A stretch of 64,000 nt of DNA from contig OMWB01000003.1 of the NCBI GenBank assembly GCA_900314645.1, forward strand, positions 1 through 64,000, given 5' to 3'. Origin of the DNA: an uncultured Actinomycetes bacterium. Its GTDB lineage: Bacteria > Actinomycetota > Coriobacteriia > Coriobacteriales > Atopobiaceae. A program made the position numbers and the translations under genes. Shown in pieces: positions 37,655-50,203 of the stretch. The notes below the pieces were generated by a model. The model made no database searches. It was not told the DNA's origin and saw nothing but the letters and a program-made list of their open reading frames with translations. Positions within the stretch are counted from its first letter, which is position 1; every line of letters starts with the position of its first letter.

Positions 37655-39118
37655 TTACAGGCCAATCGTCTGGGCCAGCTCTGTGGCGCACGCGATTCCG
37701 TCAGCGATGGCGTTTACCACGAGTGACGAGCCCGTGCGGCAGTCTCCCGCAACAAAGACGGGGGTGGAGCCCTGTGAGACAGCGGCGTGCGAGCCGCCCT
37801 TCGTCAGGGGTAGGCCGCGGATATCGTCTGCGCGCGTTACGCCAAACGCCTCGAACACCTGGCCTTCAGGGCCTAGGAATCCCATTGCCAGCAGCACGAG
37901 CTGCGCCGGAATGACTCGCTCCGTCTCCGCAAGACGCTCGGGCTTGCCAGAAGACCAGTCAAGCGACACAACGCGCAGCCCGCTGACGCGTCCCTCGTCG
38001 TGCAGCACTTCCAACGTATCGACCCCCCACTGCCGCGGGTCGTGTCCTTGTAAGGCCGCAGCCTCGAGCTGGCCATAGTCATCCTTGCGCACCTTGGGCC
38101 ATTGTGGCCAGATGTCGCCCTTCATACGAGATGCGGGCGGCTCGGGAAGGAACTCTAGCTGTGTCACGCTACGCGCCTCTTGCCGCAACGCCGTTGCTAC
38201 GCAATCGGTGCCAGTATCTCCTCCACCAATCACCACGACGTCAAGGCCCGCAGCACTGACCTGCGGTTCATTGTCAGCGAGGAGCGCCTTTGTCGCAGAA
38301 GTGAGATAGTCGACGGCCAAGATAACGCCAGAAGCCTCCGAGCCTGGCACGTTCAGCCGCCGTGCGTTGCGGGCACCAGTAGCGATGACGACGGCATCAT
38401 GGGTGGAGACGAGTTGGTGCGCTACAGCGGGATCAGTCACGTCGGTACTGCAGAGCACGTTGATTCCGCTAGCCGACATCAATGACGTGCGTCGCTCCAC
38501 AACCTCCTTGGGCAGCTTCATGTTAGGAATGCCGTACATGAGTAGGCCACCCGCGCGGTCATCACGTTCCACCAAAGTTACCTGGGCACCGTGTCTCGCA
38601 AGCTCCCAGGCGCTGGCAAGGCCGGCAGGTCCCGATCCGATGACGGCAACTATTGGCGCGTCTTTTGATGGCGTCTCAAGGCTGAGCGTACCGAGGCCTT
38701 GCGCCCACGCATGGTCGGAGATGGCTCGCTCGTTGTCCCTGATGGTGGTTGCTCCATCATGCAGGCCCAAATTGCATGCCGCTTCGCAGAGCGCGGGGCA
38801 CACCCTGCCCGTGAACTCAGGGAACGGATTGGTAAGCGCGAGCCGTTCTGCGGCTTCGTCCCATAGCCCGCGGTATACGAGGTCATTCCATTCAGGTATG
38901 AGGTTATGGAGCGGGCAGCCCGATGGGCGGGCGCCCCCAAAGCTTGCCCCCACCTGGCAAAAGGCGACGCCACAGTACATGCAGCGGCTTGCCTGCGCCT
39001 GTTGCGCTTCGGCAGTTAGTGGCAGCGCCAGCTCGTGGTAATCATGCACAGCCTCGCTTGGCGCACGCGTGGCATGTTCCTGTCGGCTGACCGTGAGGTA
39101 GGCTCCTGGCTTTCCCAT
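37655..39118 (-). CDS. gltD: glutamate synthase small subunit GltD
   Basis: The NAD(P)H-oxidising beta subunit of glutamate synthase. At 487 residues it has an N-terminal region with Fe-S cysteines (CMYCGVAFCQ...GCPLHNLIPEWNDLVYRG and CPALCEAACNLG), FAD binding at VIGSGPAGLASAWELARHG, and NAD(P)H binding at VVIGGGDTGTDCVATALR. It passes electrons to GltB to make two glutamates from glutamine and 2-oxoglutarate. Only 4 bp separate it from gltB. Confidence 0.96.
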   Translation of the reverse strand: MGKPGAYLTVSRQEHATRAPSEAVHDYHELALPLTAEAQQAQASRCMYCGVAFCQVGASFGGARPSGCPLHNLIPEWNDLVYRGLWDEAAERLALTNPFPEFTGRVCPALCEAACNLGLHDGATTIRDNERAISDHAWAQGLGTLSLETPSKDAPIVAVIGSGPAGLASAWELARHGAQVTLVERDDRAGGLLMYGIPNMKLPKEVVERRTSLMSASGINVLCSTDVTDPAVAHQLVSTHDAVVIATGARNARRLNVPGSEASGVILAVDYLTSATKALLADNEPQVSAAGLDVVVIGGGDTGTDCVATALRQEARSVTQLEFLPEPPASRMKGDIWPQWPKVRKDDYGQLEAAALQGHDPRQWGVDTLEVLHDEGRVSGLRVVSLDWSSGKPERLAETERVIPAQLVLLAMGFLGPEGQVFEAFGVTRADDIRGLPLTKGGSHAAVSQGSTPVFVAGDCRTGSSLVVNAIADGIACATELAQTIGL

Positions 39119-39122
39119 GGTC

Positions 39123-42100
39123 CTATGCCTCCTTCCTCAGCGATTCAAACGCAAGCTCTATGGCTTCCTCTCGGCTTACGCCGCTCGCCTGTTCGAGGTC
39201 TGCGCGATCCATGATCTGCTGGTACTCGTGAGGCACCACCTTCAGGAAGTGCCTGCGTGCGTCGGCAAACTGGTAGAGCAGCTTGATTCCGCGTGGGCTT
39301 GCCGTCCGCTCCACATGCTCCTCGATGAGCTTTCTGATCTGCTCAAGCTCGGCGTCGGTGGGGCGGGTGATTTCGACCATGTCCTTGTTGCATCGCGCCT
39401 CAAACGTGCGCAGTTCGTCGTAGACATAGGCCGTGCCGCCGCTCATGCCCGCGGCAAAGTTCTGGCCCACCTCTCCAAGAATGAGGACGGTGCCGCCCGT
39501 CATGTACTCGCAGCCGTGATTGCCCACGCCCTCTACCACCAGCGTCGCGCCGGAGTTGCGCACGCCAAAGCGCTGACCGGCGAGGCCGTTGACAAATCCC
39601 TTGCCGCTTGTCGCCCCATAGAAGGCGACGTTGCCTACGCTTACGTTTTCGTCAAACTTGTAGGTCGCATCAGTGTGAGGACGCACGGAGACGATTCCTC
39701 CCGAGAGCCCCTTTCCCACGTAGTCGTTTGCGTCTCCCTCGATATTGAGCGTGATGCCCCGTGGGAGGAATGCCGCAAAGCTCTGTCCGCCCGAGCCCTC
39801 GCAGTCAATGGTGACGGCGCCCTCAGGCAGCCCCTCGGGATGAGCCTTGGTCACGGCCGCACCCAGCATGGTCCCCACGCAACGATTGACGTTGTCGATG
39901 TCCGCATGGAAGCGCACGGGAACCATGTGCTCGCGGGCGCTTGTGGTGTATGGGACGAAGAGCGTGGCGTCGAGCGTCTGCTCGAGGTGAAGGTCTGCGG
40001 CCATCTCGGGGAAGAAGCGGACGCCGGCAGCACCTGGTATGGGCTCTGCGAGCTGTGGCGTCGCCTGATAGAGGAGGGCGGAAAGGTCGCAGGAGTTGGC
40101 CTTCGGGTGACCATCGACCGTGCGCTGTCGCAGGCATTCGGGATGACCTACCATCTCGTCAACCGTGCGGAAGCCCAGGCGCGCCATGTGCTCGCGCAGG
40201 CTTTGCGCCACAAAGGTCATGAAGTTGACCACATGCTCGGGCTTGCCGGCAAAGCGCCTCCGTAGGCACTCATCCTGGGTGCAGATGCCCACGGGACACG
40301 TGTCCTGGTGACAGTCGCGCTGCATGAGACAGCCTATGGCCACGAGCGGCATGGTGGCAAACCCAAATTCCTCGGCTCCCAACAGGGCCGCGATGGCCAC
40401 GTCTCGCCCGTCCATGAGCTTGCCATCGGTTTCGAGCGTCACACGAGAGCGCAGGCCATTCATGAGCAGCGTTTGCTGCGCCTCGGCCAGGCCCAGCTCC
40501 CACGGGAGTCCCGCATGGTAGATGGAGTCGCGCGGTGCGGCACCAGTACCGCCGTTGGAACCAGAGATCAGGATCTTCGCGGCTCCGCCCTTGGCAACTC
40601 CGGTTGCGATGGTGCCCACGCCCGCCTCGCTCACGAGTTTGACACTGATGCGCGCCTGAGGATTGGCGCACTTCAGATCAAAGATGAGCTCGGCGAGGTC
40701 CTCGATGGAGTAGATGTCGTGATGCGGCGGAGGAGAGATGAGCCCGACACCAGGCGTTGAGTGGCGGATTCGCGCAACCCACGGCCACACTTTCCGTCCA
40801 GGGAGATGGCCGCCCTCGCCAGGCTTCGCGCCTTGGGCCATCTTGATCTGAATCTCGGCCGCACTTCCCAGATAACGGCTCGTCACGCCAAAGCGCCCCG
40901 ACGCCACTTGCTTGATGGCGGAGTTCATGGAGTCGCCGGATGCCAGTGGCGTCTCGCGGGCGGGGTCCTCTCCGCCCTCGCCCGTGTTGGAACGTCCTCT
41001 CAGGCGGTTCATGGCAACGGCGAGGCACTCGTGGGCCTCCTGGCTGATGGAGCCAAAGCTCATCGCGCCCGTGTTGAAGCGCCGTACGATGGAGGAGGCA
41101 GACTCCACCTCGTCGAGCGGAACCGGTCCGGTTGCCAAGGGGACCAGCTCGAGCAGATCACGTAGTTGCGTCGTCTTGCTGGAACGGTGCACTTCGGCAC
41201 AGTATTGTCCAAAGAGGCCGTAGTCGTTCTCGCGGCAGGCGCGCTGCAGAAGGTAGATGGCTTGCGGCGTGATGAGGTGTTCCTCGCCCGCAGGCCGCCA
41301 TTTGGTAATGCCCGAACTTGGCAGTTGCCACATGGTTGACAATCCACGGGCATGCGCCTGGCGGTATCGCTCGTCCGCCTCGCGTTGAATGCCCTGCAGG
41401 TCAATACCGCCAATGCGGCTCGTCGTACCCGCAAAGCAGCGACTCACCACCGAGTCGGCGAGCCCCAAGACCTCAAAGATCTGGGCGGAGTGGTATCCCT
41501 GCATGGTGGAGATGCCCATCTTGCTCATGATTGAGACGATGCCTGCGGTCACCGCCTGATCATAGTTCGCTTTTGCCTCGCTGGGGCTCAGCGTAATCGC
41601 GCCTTGGGCGGCGAGGGCATCAATGCATGCATGTGCGAGATATGGATGGATGCCGCTTGCAGAGTAGCCCACCAGCGCGGCAAAGTCGTGCGGCGAGATG
41701 GCATCGCCCGTCTCGATGATAAGGTCCGTGCGCATGCGAACGCCAACCCTGATGAGGTGGTTGTGCACGCTGCCCAGCGCAAGCAGGGATGGGATGGGGA
41801 CCTCGCCCGGACACGTGCGGTCTGAGATGATGACGATGTTGGACCCTTCTCGCACCGCATGTTCTACGGCTTTGTCTAGCTGGTCGAGCGCCTGCTCGAG
41901 TGCTCCGGTGGCACCGCCGGAAGGGTAGGTTGCGCTGAACGTTGCAACGCGGAATCCGACGCGGTCGACGCTGCGAATTCGCTCGAAGTCCTCGTCCGAG
42001 AGGATTGGCCCCCCAAGGCGGATGAGGCGACAGGTGTCGCGGCAATCCTCGAGCAGGTTGCCGTGGTTACCCAGGTAAAGTACTCCCGAGGTCACCAGGC

Positions 42101-43712
42101 TCTCGCGTAGGGCGTCGATGGGCGGGTTGGTTACCTGTGCAAAGAGCTCATTGAAGTAGTCGAAGAACGATCGGCAGTGACGCGAGAGGATGGCGGGCGG
42201 CACATCGGTGCCCATAGAAGCGAGCGGCACCGCGCTCGTCTGCGCCATGGGCCTCACGACCTCCTCGATGTCATCGAAGTGATAGCCGTGGCAGGCAAGG
42301 CGGGAGGCCAGGGACATCTCATTGTCTGGTTCCTCGTCTGCAGGACCGCGCAGCGGCAGGTCGGAGACTTCGACTGTCTCGGTGTCCAGCCAGGTGCGGA
42401 AGGGCTTCTGGGCGGCATAGCTGTCGCGCAGCTCGTCGTTCCAGATGACACGTCCCTGATTCGGGTCAACCACCAGCATCTCTCCCGGTCCCAGACATCC
42501 AGCCTGCAGGATGATCGCAGGATCGACGTCGATGGCACCCACCTCGCTTGCGAGAATGAGGCGGTCGTCACGGGTTACGTAGTAGCGAGCCGGACGCAGG
42601 CCGTTTCGGTCAAGTGCGGCGCCCATGCGCACGCCGTCAGAGAAGGCTATCGCGGCAGGTCCGTCCCAAGGCTCCATCAGCATGGACTGGTAGGCGTCAT
42701 AGCTACGTCGTGCGTCAGAGAGCTGTGCATTGCGTTCCCAAGGTTCCGGAATCATGAGGGTAACGGATCGTGCGAGGTCTCGTCCGTTCATCACGAGAAA
42801 CTCGAGCACGTTGTCCAGAATGGCAGAGTCTGAGCCTTCTCGGTTTATGACGGGGAGCACCTTGCGGATGTCTGACCCAAGGATGGGCGAGTAGAGATGT
42901 GGCTCACGCGCGCGAAGCCAGTTAACGTTACCGCGCAGGGTGTTGATTTCTCCGTTATGGATGATGAGGCGGTTGGGATGCGCACGCTCCCAGCTGGGAG
43001 TGGTGTTGGTGGAATAGCGCGAGTGCACGAGAGCGAGCGAGCTTTCTACAGCTGCGTCGTTCAGGTCGAGATAGAAGCCACGCATCTGCGTTGCCACGAG
43101 CATGCCCTTGTATACGATGGTTCGGGAGCTCATCGAGCAGATATAGAAGATCTTACCCTCCAGCTCATGGGATGCGTCTCCCCGCTTTTCTATGGTTCTG
43201 CGGCACACATAGAGCTTTCGCTCAAAGCTGTCTCCCGGGTCTATCTCTGCGGGGCGTGCTACGAATGCCTGCAGGATCGTGGGCATGCAGGCCCGAGCGG
43301 TGGCACCGAGGTCATGGTCATCAACGGGAACCTCGCGCCAGAAAAGCACGGGCACGCCCTCCGCTGCGCAGCCGTCCTCAAAGATGCGGCGCGCATCTGT
43401 GACGCCCTGGGAATCTTGGGGACAGAAGAGCATGGCTACACCGTAGTCGCCCTCGTCAGGCAACAGATGGCCGCACTTCTGGGCTTCCTTTCGGAAGAAT
43501 CGGTGTGGTACTTGGAAGAGAATGCCCGCGCCGTCACCGGTGTTCGCCTCAAGACCCTTGCCTCCACGATGCTCGAGGTTGACCAGCACGCTGAGGGCGT
43601 CATCCACCATACGGTGGGATCGCTCTCCCTTGAGATGTGCAAGCGCCCCGATGCCACAGGCATCATGCTCGAACTCCGGCCGATACAGGCTGCTTGTCTC
43701 GGTCTGCTTCAT
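39123..43712 (-). CDS. gltB: glutamate synthase large subunit GltB
   Basis: A 1529-residue alpha subunit: N-terminal glutaminase domain whose nucleophile is C19 (FEHDACGIG), exposed by removal of a short propeptide, then the central domain, the FMN-binding synthase domain with GEGGEDPARE, the 3Fe-4S loop (CLMQRDCHQDTCPVGIC), and a C-terminal beta-helix of glycine-rich repeats. The ATG at 43712 has GGAGAGG upstream. It heads the gltB-gltD-dapF-dapL series. With GSIII it forms the GS-GOGAT cycle. Confidence 0.97.
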   Translation of the reverse strand: MKQTETSSLYRPEFEHDACGIGALAHLKGERSHRMVDDALSVLVNLEHRGGKGLEANTGDGAGILFQVPHRFFRKEAQKCGHLLPDEGDYGVAMLFCPQDSQGVTDARRIFEDGCAAEGVPVLFWREVPVDDHDLGATARACMPTILQAFVARPAEIDPGDSFERKLYVCRRTIEKRGDASHELEGKIFYICSMSSRTIVYKGMLVATQMRGFYLDLNDAAVESSLALVHSRYSTNTTPSWERAHPNRLIIHNGEINTLRGNVNWLRAREPHLYSPILGSDIRKVLPVINREGSDSAILDNVLEFLVMNGRDLARSVTLMIPEPWERNAQLSDARRSYDAYQSMLMEPWDGPAAIAFSDGVRMGAALDRNGLRPARYYVTRDDRLILASEVGAIDVDPAIILQAGCLGPGEMLVVDPNQGRVIWNDELRDSYAAQKPFRTWLDTETVEVSDLPLRGPADEEPDNEMSLASRLACHGYHFDDIEEVVRPMAQTSAVPLASMGTDVPPAILSRHCRSFFDYFNELFAQVTNPPIDALRESLVTSGVLYLGNHGNLLEDCRDTCRLIRLGGPILSDEDFERIRSVDRVGFRVATFSATYPSGGATGALEQALDQLDKAVEHAVREGSNIVIISDRTCPGEVPIPSLLALGSVHNHLIRVGVRMRTDLIIETGDAISPHDFAALVGYSASGIHPYLAHACIDALAAQGAITLSPSEAKANYDQAVTAGIVSIMSKMGISTMQGYHSAQIFEVLGLADSVVSRCFAGTTSRIGGIDLQGIQREADERYRQAHARGLSTMWQLPSSGITKWRPAGEEHLITPQAIYLLQRACRENDYGLFGQYCAEVHRSSKTTQLRDLLELVPLATGPVPLDEVESASSIVRRFNTGAMSFGSISQEAHECLAVAMNRLRGRSNTGEGGEDPARETPLASGDSMNSAIKQVASGRFGVTSRYLGSAAEIQIKMAQGAKPGEGGHLPGRKVWPWVARIRHSTPGVGLISPPPHHDIYSIEDLAELIFDLKCANPQARISVKLVSEAGVGTIATGVAKGGAAKILISGSNGGTGAAPRDSIYHAGLPWELGLAEAQQTLLMNGLRSRVTLETDGKLMDGRDVAIAALLGAEEFGFATMPLVAIGCLMQRDCHQDTCPVGICTQDECLRRRFAGKPEHVVNFMTFVAQSLREHMARLGFRTVDEMVGHPECLRQRTVDGHPKANSCDLSALLYQATPQLAEPIPGAAGVRFFPEMAADLHLEQTLDATLFVPYTTSAREHMVPVRFHADIDNVNRCVGTMLGAAVTKAHPEGLPEGAVTIDCEGSGGQSFAAFLPRGITLNIEGDANDYVGKGLSGGIVSVRPHTDATYKFDENVSVGNVAFYGATSGKGFVNGLAGQRFGVRNSGATLVVEGVGNHGCEYMTGGTVLILGEVGQNFAAGMSGGTAYVYDELRTFEARCNKDMVEITRPTDAELEQIRKLIEEHVERTASPRGIKLLYQFADARRHFLKVVPHEYQQIMDRADLEQASGVSREEAIELAFESLRKEA

Positions 43713-43958
43713 GTCCCTCTCCTTGCGCGCCTTGCCACGATGGCAGCTGGCTGTCAATAAACCGCACGTGAAAAGGGTAGGCGCTAAGCGTTCCCAACTT
43801 TGGCGTTTGAACCAAACCGTCTACCTGCGTGCCATTCAACTGTCACCCGTATGACATACATGCGTATTCGGTCATAAACGCTCTCGAAATACTTGAAAAC
43901 CCACTTGGCTTTCTGATACGTCACAATGAAGTGAAAGCTTGCGCAGAGGAGGTGGCAC

Positions 43959-44888
43959 ATGATAGAGACGGTATTCTCGGCAGCGCTGCCCGTGGGCGAG
44001 CGACTCATCGTGAAGAAGAACCGTATAGAGGGACGCGGTGGACGCGGTCCGCGCATTGCCGTGGTGACGGGAATCCATGGTGATGGCCTTGAGGGACAGT
44101 TTGTCGCCTTCGAGCTTGCGCAGCGCCTGCGCGAGCGCATCGGTGACCTGCGAGGCATTGTCGACATCTACCCGGCACTGAATCCGCTGGGCATCAGCGC
44201 CTCCGAGCACGGGGTGCCGCTCTTTGACCTCGATCTTGACCGGACCTTTCCTGGCAACGCAAAGGGCAACATGAACGAGGCCCTTGCCGCAGCCATCGTG
44301 GCTGACATCAAGGGTGCCAACGTCTGCGTTGATATCCACACGCCCGATGCGTACTTGCGCGAAGTATCGCAGGTACGGATTGAGGAGCAGTTTTCTAGGA
44401 CGCTTCTGCCCCTTGCGCAGTTCTTGAATACGCAGCTGGTATGGGTTCACGGATCGACGGACCCCCTGCGCTCGACGTTGGCCCACACGCTCAATAGCAA
44501 GCGCACGCGTACGTTGGTGGTGGAGATGGGGGAGAGCCTGCGTATCACTGAGGACGCCGGAAGTTGGTTGACCGAGGGAATCCTGCGTCTTGTTGAGCAC
44601 TTGGGCGGCTGGACCAGCTCGTCGGTCGCGCTGCCGTTTCCGCGTCTGGTTCGTGACAGCAACGTCACTTCGGCGTCGGCTGAGGTCCCGGGAATCTTTC
44701 TACCGCGGATTGAGCTGGGCACCATGGTGCGTTCCGGACAGACAATCGGCGTGATTGCCGATCCTTTGGAGGCGGAGGTGAAGGCCGAGGTCTGCGCGCC
44801 TGCTGAGGGAACCGTGATATCGCTGAGATCGCAGCCGCTCGTCTATCCAGGCACGTTGCTCGCCCGAGTCTTGGGAGGTGCGCGATGA
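43959..44888 (+). CDS. succinylglutamate desuccinylase/aspartoacylase-like protein, first of a pair
   Basis: A 309-residue M14-like zinc hydrolase-fold protein. Compared with the family HGDE...E, H40 is present in GIHGDGLEG, but the following Glu position is Gly43; E45 lies two residues further. The second zinc His is intact (H127 in VDIHT), as is the catalytic Glu (E189 in VVEMGES). The C-terminal part (about 225-309) is a biotinyl-lipoyl-like barrel. It may deacylate N-acyl amino acids; the substrate is unknown. GAGGAGG precedes the start. It overlaps the second member by 4 bp (ATGA). Confidence 0.85.
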   Translation: MIETVFSAALPVGERLIVKKNRIEGRGGRGPRIAVVTGIHGDGLEGQFVAFELAQRLRERIGDLRGIVDIYPALNPLGISASEHGVPLFDLDLDRTFPGNAKGNMNEALAAAIVADIKGANVCVDIHTPDAYLREVSQVRIEEQFSRTLLPLAQFLNTQLVWVHGSTDPLRSTLAHTLNSKRTRTLVVEMGESLRITEDAGSWLTEGILRLVEHLGGWTSSSVALPFPRLVRDSNVTSASAEVPGIFLPRIELGTMVRSGQTIGVIADPLEAEVKAEVCAPAEGTVISLRSQPLVYPGTLLARVLGGAR

Positions 44889-45829
44889 GAAGGCTTACTG
44901 TGTACCGGCTCGACGTGCCCTATCGGGAGCCCCTGCGCGTGGAGGCGTTTGAGTTTGGCGAGCATCAGGGCGTGCCAACGTGCTCGATTGTCGGCTCCAT
45001 GCGCGGTGACGAGGTACAGCAGGCCTACGCCTGTGCGCGCGTGGTGGAACGGCTGGAGCATGTTGAGGAGCGCGGAGGGCTGCGCAAGGGCGTGCGCATC
45101 CTGGTTATTCCCTGCGCAAATCCGCTCTCGATGAACGTGGCCAGCCGCTTTTGGCCTGCCGATGGTACTGACATCAACCGCCGCTTTCCGGGCGATGCCC
45201 ACGGTGAGACCACCGAACGGGTGGCTGCGGGCATCTTTGGTGCCGTACACGGTAGTGCCTATGGCATCCAGTTTGCGAGCTTCAACCAGCAGGGTGACTT
45301 CTTGCCGCATGTTCGTGTGATGAGGGTTGGAGCGGTGAGCGACGAGTCGCTTGCGATGGCCGAGGACTTCCGACTTCCGTGCGTGGTCTCACGTGATGCG
45401 CAGCCCTTTGATACCGGCACGCTCAACTACAGCTGGCAGGAGTGGGGCACGCACGCCTTCTCGGTGTATAGCCGAACCACTGACCGCATCGACAGGCCAA
45501 GCGCCACGCTGGTCGGCAATGCGGTGATGCGCTTTTTGGGTACGCGAGGCCTCATTTCTGGCCGTGTGAGCGGAGGTACCGATGGCGTACGCCTTGACGA
45601 GGCGGAGCTGGTTGACGTGCGTACCGAGGGGTCTTCGGGTTACCTGGACGGCCGCGTCAAGCCGGGCGACTTCGTTGAGAAGGGTCAGGAGCTGGGGCTT
45701 GTGCTTGATGCCTTTGATGCCCATGTACGAGAGCGTCTCGTTTCTCCTGTCGCAGGCCAAGTCTTCTTCTGCCGCGTAAAGGCCTTGGTGCAGCAGCGGA
45801 TGGTTGCCTACCGTATCGTCCCGCTGTAG
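44885..45829 (+). CDS. desuccinylase-like protein, second of pair, probably inactive
   Basis: A 314-residue paralogue of the preceding protein, with the same fold and C-terminal barrel. Its zinc and catalytic residues are replaced: SMRGDEVQQ has R40 where the His should be (E43 kept), IQFAS has Q129 and A131 where VDIHT has Asp and His, and FSVYS has Y195 where VEMG has the catalytic Glu. It therefore looks like a pseudoenzyme that may pair with the first protein, whose own Glu at the complementary site is missing. The genes overlap by 4 bp. The alignment is by eye. Confidence 0.82.
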   Translation: MRRLTVYRLDVPYREPLRVEAFEFGEHQGVPTCSIVGSMRGDEVQQAYACARVVERLEHVEERGGLRKGVRILVIPCANPLSMNVASRFWPADGTDINRRFPGDAHGETTERVAAGIFGAVHGSAYGIQFASFNQQGDFLPHVRVMRVGAVSDESLAMAEDFRLPCVVSRDAQPFDTGTLNYSWQEWGTHAFSVYSRTTDRIDRPSATLVGNAVMRFLGTRGLISGRVSGGTDGVRLDEAELVDVRTEGSSGYLDGRVKPGDFVEKGQELGLVLDAFDAHVRERLVSPVAGQVFFCRVKALVQQRMVAYRIVPL

Positions 45830-45904
45830 TGCGGTGCGTCCCGGGGGTAGCCCCCTAGGCGCACTTTAGTGCGCCTAGGGGGCTACCCCCGGGACGCACC
45901 GCAC
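45829..45904. repeat. 37-bp perfect inverted repeat (hairpin class B)
   Basis: The arms 45829-45865 and 45868-45904 pair without mismatch around a TT loop, starting at the last base of the preceding stop codon. Each arm holds GGGGGTAGCCCCC with GTGCG and CGCAC at its ends, so each arm can fold alone. The right arm is repeated exactly at 5161-5194, 40 kb away. No T-run follows. Confidence 0.95.
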
Positions 45905-46056
45905 CCAAGCAGGCTGCGTTTCGCAAGAGTTGCGTTTTCTGACACGTGCTTGTGAATCCGTCGAAGCCTTCCAGAAACCGATGCAAAACGGTTTCGTATC
46001 GTTGCGTCTGCATAATCGGCGAATCATATGTCGAATCGCAGCAAAAGGGGGCTCTC

Positions 46057-47904
46057 ATGTGCGGAATCGTTGGGTATACGGGCAGCAAGCAGGCGGCTCC
46101 GTGGCTGCTTGAGGGGCTTCAGACGCTCGAGTACCGCGGATACGACTCCGCGGGCGTCTCGGTGGTGTCTCCCTCGGGCAACCTCCATGGCGTGAAGTGC
46201 GCCGGCCGTGTGGCGCATCTGGTGGAGCGCGCGAAGGTGGCCAACCTCAATGGCATGTGCGGCATCGGCCACACGCGTTGGGCCACGCATGGAGCCCCGA
46301 CTGACCGCAACGCGCACCCGCACTACGACTGCTCTGGCCGCATCGCGGTGGTTCACAACGGCATCGTGGAGAACTACCAGGCACTCAAGCGGCAGTTGAT
46401 GCTCGATGGTCATGCGTTTGCAAGCGACACTGACTCTGAGGTCATCGCGCACCTCATCGAGGAGGCGTGGAACGGCCCTGCCAAGGGAGACCTCGCCTCT
46501 GCCGTGCGCAATGCGTGTGACCGGCTCGAGGGCTCGTGGGCGCTTGCTGTGGTATGCGCGGACGTCCCCGGTGAGCTCGTGGTTACGCGCTGTGGTTCGC
46601 CGCTGGTGGTGGCTTCCACTGATGACGGTGCCTACGCGGCTTCCGACGTCATGCCGCTTGCCTCGGTGACGAGCCACGTGCTTCAGCTCGAGGACTACGA
46701 CGTGGCCACGCTGCACGCCGACGGCTCCATTGCCATCGTCGACCGCGATGGCCGCGCGGTGGAGCACCCCACGGCCATTGACATCGACTGGGATGCCTCT
46801 GCGGCCAAGCTGGGCGGCTACTCCGACTTCATGGCCAAGGAGATCAGCGAGCAGCCCGAGGCAATCGAGCGCCTGCTCGCGGGGCGTCTGGGCGAGCACG
46901 GCATCGAGATGGACGAGCTCACGCTGACGCGCTCGGAGCTCGCTGCGGTGGATCGCGTGTTCATCATTGCGTGCGGCACGTCCTACCACGTGGGCCTCAT
47001 TGCCAAGACGGTCATCGAGAAGTGGGCAAGGATTCCCGTCTCGTGCGAGTACGCGAGCGAGTTCAACTACTCTGACGTGCTCGTGACTGACCACACGATG
47101 TGCGTGGTCATTACGCAGTCAGGCGAGACGGCTGACACGCTGACCGCGGCGCGGCGCATGCGCGGCATGGGCTGCAACGTGTTTGCGATCACCAACGTGT
47201 TGGGCTCGACGGCTGCGCGTGAGGCTGACGGTGCGCTCTACATCCAGGCCGGTCCCGAGGTAGCCGTGGCGTCAACCAAGGCCTACACCGCGCAGATGGT
47301 GGCGGCGTTCCTGCTGGCGCTGCGCCTTGCGCTGGCGCATGGCAGGATGGACATCAACGAGGTCAGGCGCCACTACGAGGATCTGTGTCAGGTGCCGGAC
47401 CTGATGCGTCAGGTGCTGAAGCGTCGGTGGCAAGACAAGCAGGCGGCGCGCCTCTTCAGCGGCAAGACCAGTGCGCTCTTCCTAGGCCGCAACGTAAACT
47501 CCACGTCGGCCTACGAGGGCGCGCTCAAGCTGAAGGAGATCAGCTACCTGCATGCCGAGGCGTACCCAGCGGGGGAGATGAAACACGGCCCCATCGCGCT
47601 TCTGGAGCCAGGGTTCCCCGTGGTGGCTATCGTGCCGGCCGACCACGTGCACGACAAGACCGTCTCCAACATCCAGGAGTGCCTGGCGCGCGGTGCCGTG
47701 GTGGTGGGCGTTGCGACCGACGGCGACGAGCGCGTGGCCAAGATGTGCCAGGCGGTCCTGTGGGTGCCGCCCTGCCCGGACGAGCTCATCGTTCCGGTGG
47801 TTGCGGCCCTGCATCTGCAGCTGCTTGCTCGCTACGTGGCACGCGACCGCGGCTACGACGTGGACAAGCCACGCAACTTGGCCAAGTCCGTGACGGTCGA
47901 GTAG
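46057..47904 (+). CDS. glmS: glutamine-fructose-6-phosphate aminotransferase GlmS
   Basis: Makes glucosamine-6-phosphate from fructose-6-phosphate and glutamine, the entry to cell-wall amino sugars. The 615-residue protein has the N-terminal nucleophile glutaminase domain (MCGIVGYTG, Cys2) and two SIS isomerase domains (CGTSYHVG and ITQSGETADT, then LGRNVNSTSAYEGALKLKEISY), ending in the conserved KSVTVE. AAAAGGGGG precedes ATG 46057; the longer frame from 45946 is not conserved. No glmS ribozyme-like structure was seen in the short leader. Confidence 0.98.
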   Translation: MCGIVGYTGSKQAAPWLLEGLQTLEYRGYDSAGVSVVSPSGNLHGVKCAGRVAHLVERAKVANLNGMCGIGHTRWATHGAPTDRNAHPHYDCSGRIAVVHNGIVENYQALKRQLMLDGHAFASDTDSEVIAHLIEEAWNGPAKGDLASAVRNACDRLEGSWALAVVCADVPGELVVTRCGSPLVVASTDDGAYAASDVMPLASVTSHVLQLEDYDVATLHADGSIAIVDRDGRAVEHPTAIDIDWDASAAKLGGYSDFMAKEISEQPEAIERLLAGRLGEHGIEMDELTLTRSELAAVDRVFIIACGTSYHVGLIAKTVIEKWARIPVSCEYASEFNYSDVLVTDHTMCVVITQSGETADTLTAARRMRGMGCNVFAITNVLGSTAAREADGALYIQAGPEVAVASTKAYTAQMVAAFLLALRLALAHGRMDINEVRRHYEDLCQVPDLMRQVLKRRWQDKQAARLFSGKTSALFLGRNVNSTSAYEGALKLKEISYLHAEAYPAGEMKHGPIALLEPGFPVVAIVPADHVHDKTVSNIQECLARGAVVVGVATDGDERVAKMCQAVLWVPPCPDELIVPVVAALHLQLLARYVARDRGYDVDKPRNLAKSVTVE

Positions 47905-49772: not shown

Positions 49773-49975
49773 TTTAACCGAGGTTGGAAGCAATTGTGGC
49801 AATCTCTCAACTCAGGCGCCTATAGGTGAAGAAGCATGCAGTGGCTGACGCGATGTGAGGCAGAAGAGAAGATGTGGCGAAAAAGAATACAAGTTGCTCT
49901 ATTATTGAGACAGAACGTCCTGTGATGCATATAAGTAAGCGTAAGGCAAGCGGGCACAAACGAAAGGAAGCAATC

Positions 49976-50203
49976 ATGGCAGAGAACGAGTTCACCGGTA
50001 CCGAGATCCCCGAGGATCTCCTTCAAGCCATCGCCGGCGGCATGACCGAGCTGGAGAAGTTCAACATCGATTCGTTCGTCTACTCCTGGAAGAAGTCCGG
50101 CATGACCCTCGAGCAGGTCCTCGGCAAGTTCTCCTTCCTCGAGGGAAACGAGAATGCCGACGAGTATTTCGACTACATCATCAAGTACTACAACTCCATC
50201 TAG
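49976..50203 (+). CDS. small peptide with double-glycine leader
   Basis: A 75-residue peptide after AAAGGAAG. Residues 1-22 (TGTEIPEDLLQAIAGG) form a textbook double-glycine leader: acidic, amphipathic, ending GG. The 53-residue remainder is acidic-aromatic, has no cysteine and few Ser/Thr, and ends DEYFDYIIKYYNSI. It could be a bacteriocin, pheromone or modified peptide precursor exported by a C39-peptidase ABC transporter, but none with that domain is here. A terminator follows, and an ABC exporter remnant and an intact exporter lie downstream. No modification enzyme is adjacent. Confidence 0.72.
   Translation: MAENEFTGTEIPEDLLQAIAGGMTELEKFNIDSFVYSWKKSGMTLEQVLGKFSFLEGNENADEYFDYIIKYYNSI

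Follow-up and report, generated by a model that had tools for sequence, protein, structure and literature searches.

An AstE/AspA-like gene pair of Coriobacteriia with a constant pseudoenzyme and a variably degenerate partner

The stretch of DNA analysed here (the window; 64,000 nucleotides from a genome of the Coriobacteriia) encodes two adjacent proteins, A and B, of the AstE/AspA (M14-like) fold. Both fail the active zinc-hydrolase signature (HxxE with the His ligands and a catalytic Glu), A by being without Glu43 and B by being without either His or the catalytic Glu. Our best explanation, which we hold with a probability of roughly 55%, is that an active enzyme and its pseudoenzyme partner were freed from their ancestral partners and now form a non-hydrolytic, probably ligand-binding pair near ammonia assimilation. 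The heteromer, the ligand, the loss of activity and the link to nitrogen assimilation are each something that we infer. The relatives of A and B range, as a natural series, from an intact enzyme accompanied by a pseudoenzyme to a pair that is conserved although degenerate in both members, and the genomic setting switches along with it; this series makes the retention of a pseudoenzyme subunit testable.

Features of the window discussed in the text
Feature	Coordinates	Strand	Remarks
A, AstE/AspA-like, degenerate metal site	43959..44888	+	309 aa; HGDG; retains His127, Glu189 and R95; D in place of N94; AF2 pLDDT 85; best PDB match 3cdx
B, AstE/AspA-like constitutive pseudoenzyme	44885..45829	+	314 aa; RGDE; second His is Ala, catalytic Glu is Tyr, NR motif kept; AF2 pLDDT 85.5; best PDB match 2qj8
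ATGA stop/start overlap of A and B	44885..44888	+	4 bp
gltB, glutamate synthase large subunit	39123..43757	-	divergent neighbour of A-B
gltD, glutamate synthase small subunit-like	37655..39118	-	
glmS, glutamine-fructose-6-phosphate transaminase	46057..47904	+	downstream of B, past the palindrome
Palindrome	45820..45913		near-perfect, 46-nt arms, between B and glmS
Small ORF	49874..50203		close to an ABC-transporter-like ORF

The family assignment is clear for both proteins. The PF24827 (AstE_AspA_cat) profile scores 64.5 bits for A and 43.7 for B against a Pfam cut-off of 25; the DoeB/EutE equivalog TIGR02994 is not reached (43.2 and 31.4 bits; cut-off 402.7). AlphaFold2 single-chain models (mean pLDDT 85) match 3cdx, 2qj8, DoeB and CphZ, the predicted fold of A giving a TM-score of 0.78 with 3cdx and that of B 0.70-0.74 with 2qj8/3cdx; confidence in the model of A is lowest at residues 41-43 and 75-87, at and near the degenerate motif. 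The motifs of A are HGDG, DIH and VVEMG. Alignment to solved relatives identifies the missing ligand as Gly43, formerly Glu, with His40, His127 and Glu189 retained and Asp42 and Asp125 also kept. B has Arg40 in place of His and retains Glu43, and alignments to 2qj8 place Ala131 at the second His position; Tyr195 stands at the position of the catalytic Glu. Translated ORFs and alignments to relatives thus confirm the HGDG and RGDE motifs reported in the initial annotation, and the further losses in B and the 4-bp gene overlap were likewise correctly described. HGDG is found again in independently assembled genomes of the clade (L031-L035, L037 and L149), which rules out a sequencing error; the change from Glu to Gly is recent and lineage-specific.

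A search of 396 Coriobacteriia genomes, most of them MAGs, with the B profile found full-length relatives of B in 44, and in all 44 A is adjacent. Those matches that carry a name are Atopobiaceae/Olsenella-like MAGs, and several of these come from ruminant guts. With the same profile, a search of the phylum returned just weak, general family matches outside Coriobacteriia and a search of viral contigs no relative, while the plasmids searched held distant family members only and no A-B pair. A and B fall into two separate, well supported clades in their trees, so the pairing is old and did not arise by a recent tandem duplication. In relatives the junction is mostly an overlap of 1-7 bases, while in the majority of the others a few bases separate the genes; the gene order is inverted in one genus. 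Inheritance as one unit of two anciently diverged subunits is the best reading of these data. B homologues standing alone with intact motifs, which would have refuted the interpretation of the initial annotation, were not found. The sole lone B (L108, on G012:C132) lies beside gltB and keeps RGDE; its host is a fragmented MAG carrying two further pairs. At another locus of that MAG (L109, on G012:C37, identical to L038) the first-motif segment of A is swapped for a stretch resembling a RimO/MiaB-type N-terminus, probably through misassembly or recombination. In two members of one genus (G005 and G008) neither the pair nor a gltB match was found.

The degeneracy of B is constant. Its motif is RG[DN]E in 54 of 54 sequences, including those in which A is fully intact, and Arg40, Gly41, Glu43, Asn98 and Arg99 are invariant in the same set; the second His position always holds a small residue, and the catalytic Glu position mostly Tyr. 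Since RG[DN]E persists even beside an intact A, B is a constitutive pseudoenzyme, in which Arg40, at the former His position, would form a salt bridge to the retained Glu43. The view that the two proteins had suffered complementary losses therefore does not hold as a property of the pair, being a snapshot of one lineage: the loss in B is fixed, that in A lineage-specific.

Two genomic contexts distinguish the pairs. In 23 of the 24 genomes with Alpha-E, A-B ends a cluster of circularly permuted (CP) ATP-grasp, Alpha-E and transglutaminase genes; in the 24th (G038), a fragmented MAG, Alpha-E lies on another contig. Neither Alpha-E nor CP-ATP-grasp was found in the 20 other pair genomes, the window's included, and there the pair nearly always adjoins glutamate synthase and/or glutamine synthetase III: its neighbours are gltB/gltD, in many cases type III glnN and sometimes asnB, L125 being a locus with neither enzyme as a neighbour. 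The MAG with the lone B has pairs of both kinds and is counted among the Alpha-E genomes. Where genomes with the ATP-grasp cluster were checked, gltB is elsewhere and the pair is not beside it. A look for a hydrolase that might replace A-B in pair-less ATP-grasp clusters covered homologues of A and B at 14 Coriobacteriia Alpha-E loci, and none was seen. On both the A and the B tree the context has switched at least twice, and the AU test rejects a single clade for the second context (p = 4e-69 and 2e-4). The repeated adjacency to GS/GOGAT genes points to ammonia assimilation, although neighbourhood alone is no proof.

The catalytic site of A follows the context. It is complete (H40, E43, N94, R95, D125, H127, E189) in 24 of 24 Alpha-E genomes. 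Where Alpha-E is absent, N94 is Asp or Glu in all 20 genomes, R95 is unchanged throughout, and 18 of the 20 have an altered catalytic or metal residue. These losses differ: the window's clade has E43G, G009 has H127Q, four genomes of a single genus combine H40Y with D125V, G564 and G713 carry E43G, H127Q and E189R together, G605 carries E43A and E189K, G683 is changed at both H127 and E189, G610 has E189D, and another, separate branch has E189K. The remaining two (G014 and G609) keep all four catalytic residues despite having no ATP-grasp cluster. The association of Alpha-E with an intact A is strong over 45 pairs (Fisher p = 9e-11), but this value ignores kinship: there are only 2-3 independent switches behind it, fewer than a phylogenetic correction would need, and some of the relatives with a common loss are close kin.

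Despite the decay of A, both proteins are under strong purifying selection. Pairwise dN/dS in the HGDG clade is 0.04-0.09 for A and 0.03-0.04 for B (rough ratios, dS being near saturation), the same as or below the values of intact branches, and both frames are open in all relatives of the clade. Under such selection the pair most probably has a function that does not involve hydrolysis; together with the changed Asn and the variously decayed catalysis, the selection is what one expects of a protein retained for its binding, and suggests an enzyme pair turned into a binder rather than a cutter. We propose that the ancestral A would have been a Zn amidohydrolase and the ancestral B its pseudoenzyme partner, serving the CP-ATP-grasp/Alpha-E/transglutaminase cluster, probably through hydrolysis of an amide that the cluster makes or handles. 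According to the PDB entry names, the substrate of CphZ is a beta-Asp-Arg dipeptide and that of DoeB an N-acetylated diamino acid, which makes a product of the ATP-grasp cluster a reasonable candidate for the ancestral substrate. The window's lineage is without the cluster: here the pair adjoins glutamate synthase, the substrate-contact Asn of A has turned into Asp and its metal site has decayed. The present role may be the binding of an acidic or N-acyl amino-acid ligand, or of a partner protein in ammonia assimilation. A more specific and distinctly tentative version has a heteromeric amidohydrolase turning, at least two times independently, into a ligand-sensing complex devoid of catalysis; placed next to glutamine synthetase III and glutamate synthase, or between the two, this complex would tune the assimilation of ammonia in gut Coriobacteriia.

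Alternatively, the pair might still be a hydrolase, with metal held by His40 and His127 of A and a replacement ligand (Asp42, water or the substrate) and with B structural. The retention of His40, Asp42, His127 and Glu189 makes a weakened or altered metal catalysis by A possible, and the HGDG clade does keep all of His40, Asp125, His127 and Glu189 under strong selection. However, sisters that share this context are without His40, His127 or Glu189, sometimes without two or three residues together (L114, L116, L126); such varied losses in close sisters make catalysis appear dispensable in this branch, and we consider continued hydrolysis unlikely. The proposal of the initial annotation that one subunit is active and the other structural survives in part: B is a fixed pseudoenzyme beside A in 44 of 44 genomes, with closely coupled genes, which for relatives with an intact A fits a heteromer of a catalytic A and a structural B, but "one active" is doubtful for a lineage whose A is without a canonical metal ligand.

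The same annotation had offered a shared site as another option, in which Glu43 of B and His40 of A would form one metal site across the interface. The invariance of Glu43 in B and the absence of that Glu from A would suit such a site, but Glu43 of B is just as invariant, within the same RGDE motif, where A has a Glu of its own. In sister lineages of A, moreover, either of the two His residues or the catalytic Glu is gone; B has none of these residues, and its Glu could not stand in for them. In solved AstE/AspA relatives, the active site lies inside a single chain. Because the motif of B is independent of that of A, we rejected the complementary or shared active site, which we regard as very improbable. 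Least credible of all is that A and B are decaying, functionless relics: such decay would fit the repeated loss, in genomes without the ancestral cluster, of one catalytic residue or another, but dN/dS of 0.03-0.09, open frames throughout the clade and conserved coupling speak against it.

Among known systems, the AstE/AspA-like M14 hydrolases DoeB/EutE (6twm), Mlr6093 (2qj8), 3cdx and the beta-Asp-Arg hydrolase CphZ (8ein) share with A-B the fold, the domain order and the ancestral HGxE...DxH...E signature of A. Unlike A-B, they are single-gene proteins, and the aligned 3cdx and 2qj8 have complete motifs; A-B instead always pairs two homologous chains, one of them without any canonical site. 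Our literature search found nothing on pseudoenzymes in the AstE/AspA family. An analogy, and only that, is offered by the M16B proteases, homologous subunit pairs with the zinc motif in one chain only (PMC12731061), and by the mitochondrial processing peptidase; yet their fold is unrelated, whereas A-B is known from genes and has its catalytic subunit itself disabled in one branch. The CP-ATP-grasp/Alpha-E/transglutaminase operon has been described, in some bacteria with Anbu (PMC6376114). The same three gene families accompany A-B in 23 relatives, where A-B is an extra companion of these genes; the window's own genome is without Alpha-E and CP-ATP-grasp. The pair provides a new lead both on this poorly understood system and on the control of ammonia assimilation in gut Actinomycetota.

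Elsewhere in the window, the palindrome between B and glmS belongs to a dispersed palindromic element; the genome contains dozens of matches to it, complete or partial. No Rfam families were found in the window. The small ORF farther downstream has no Pfam match and contains a leader-like IPEDLLQAIAGGMTE stretch; it could be a modified-peptide precursor.
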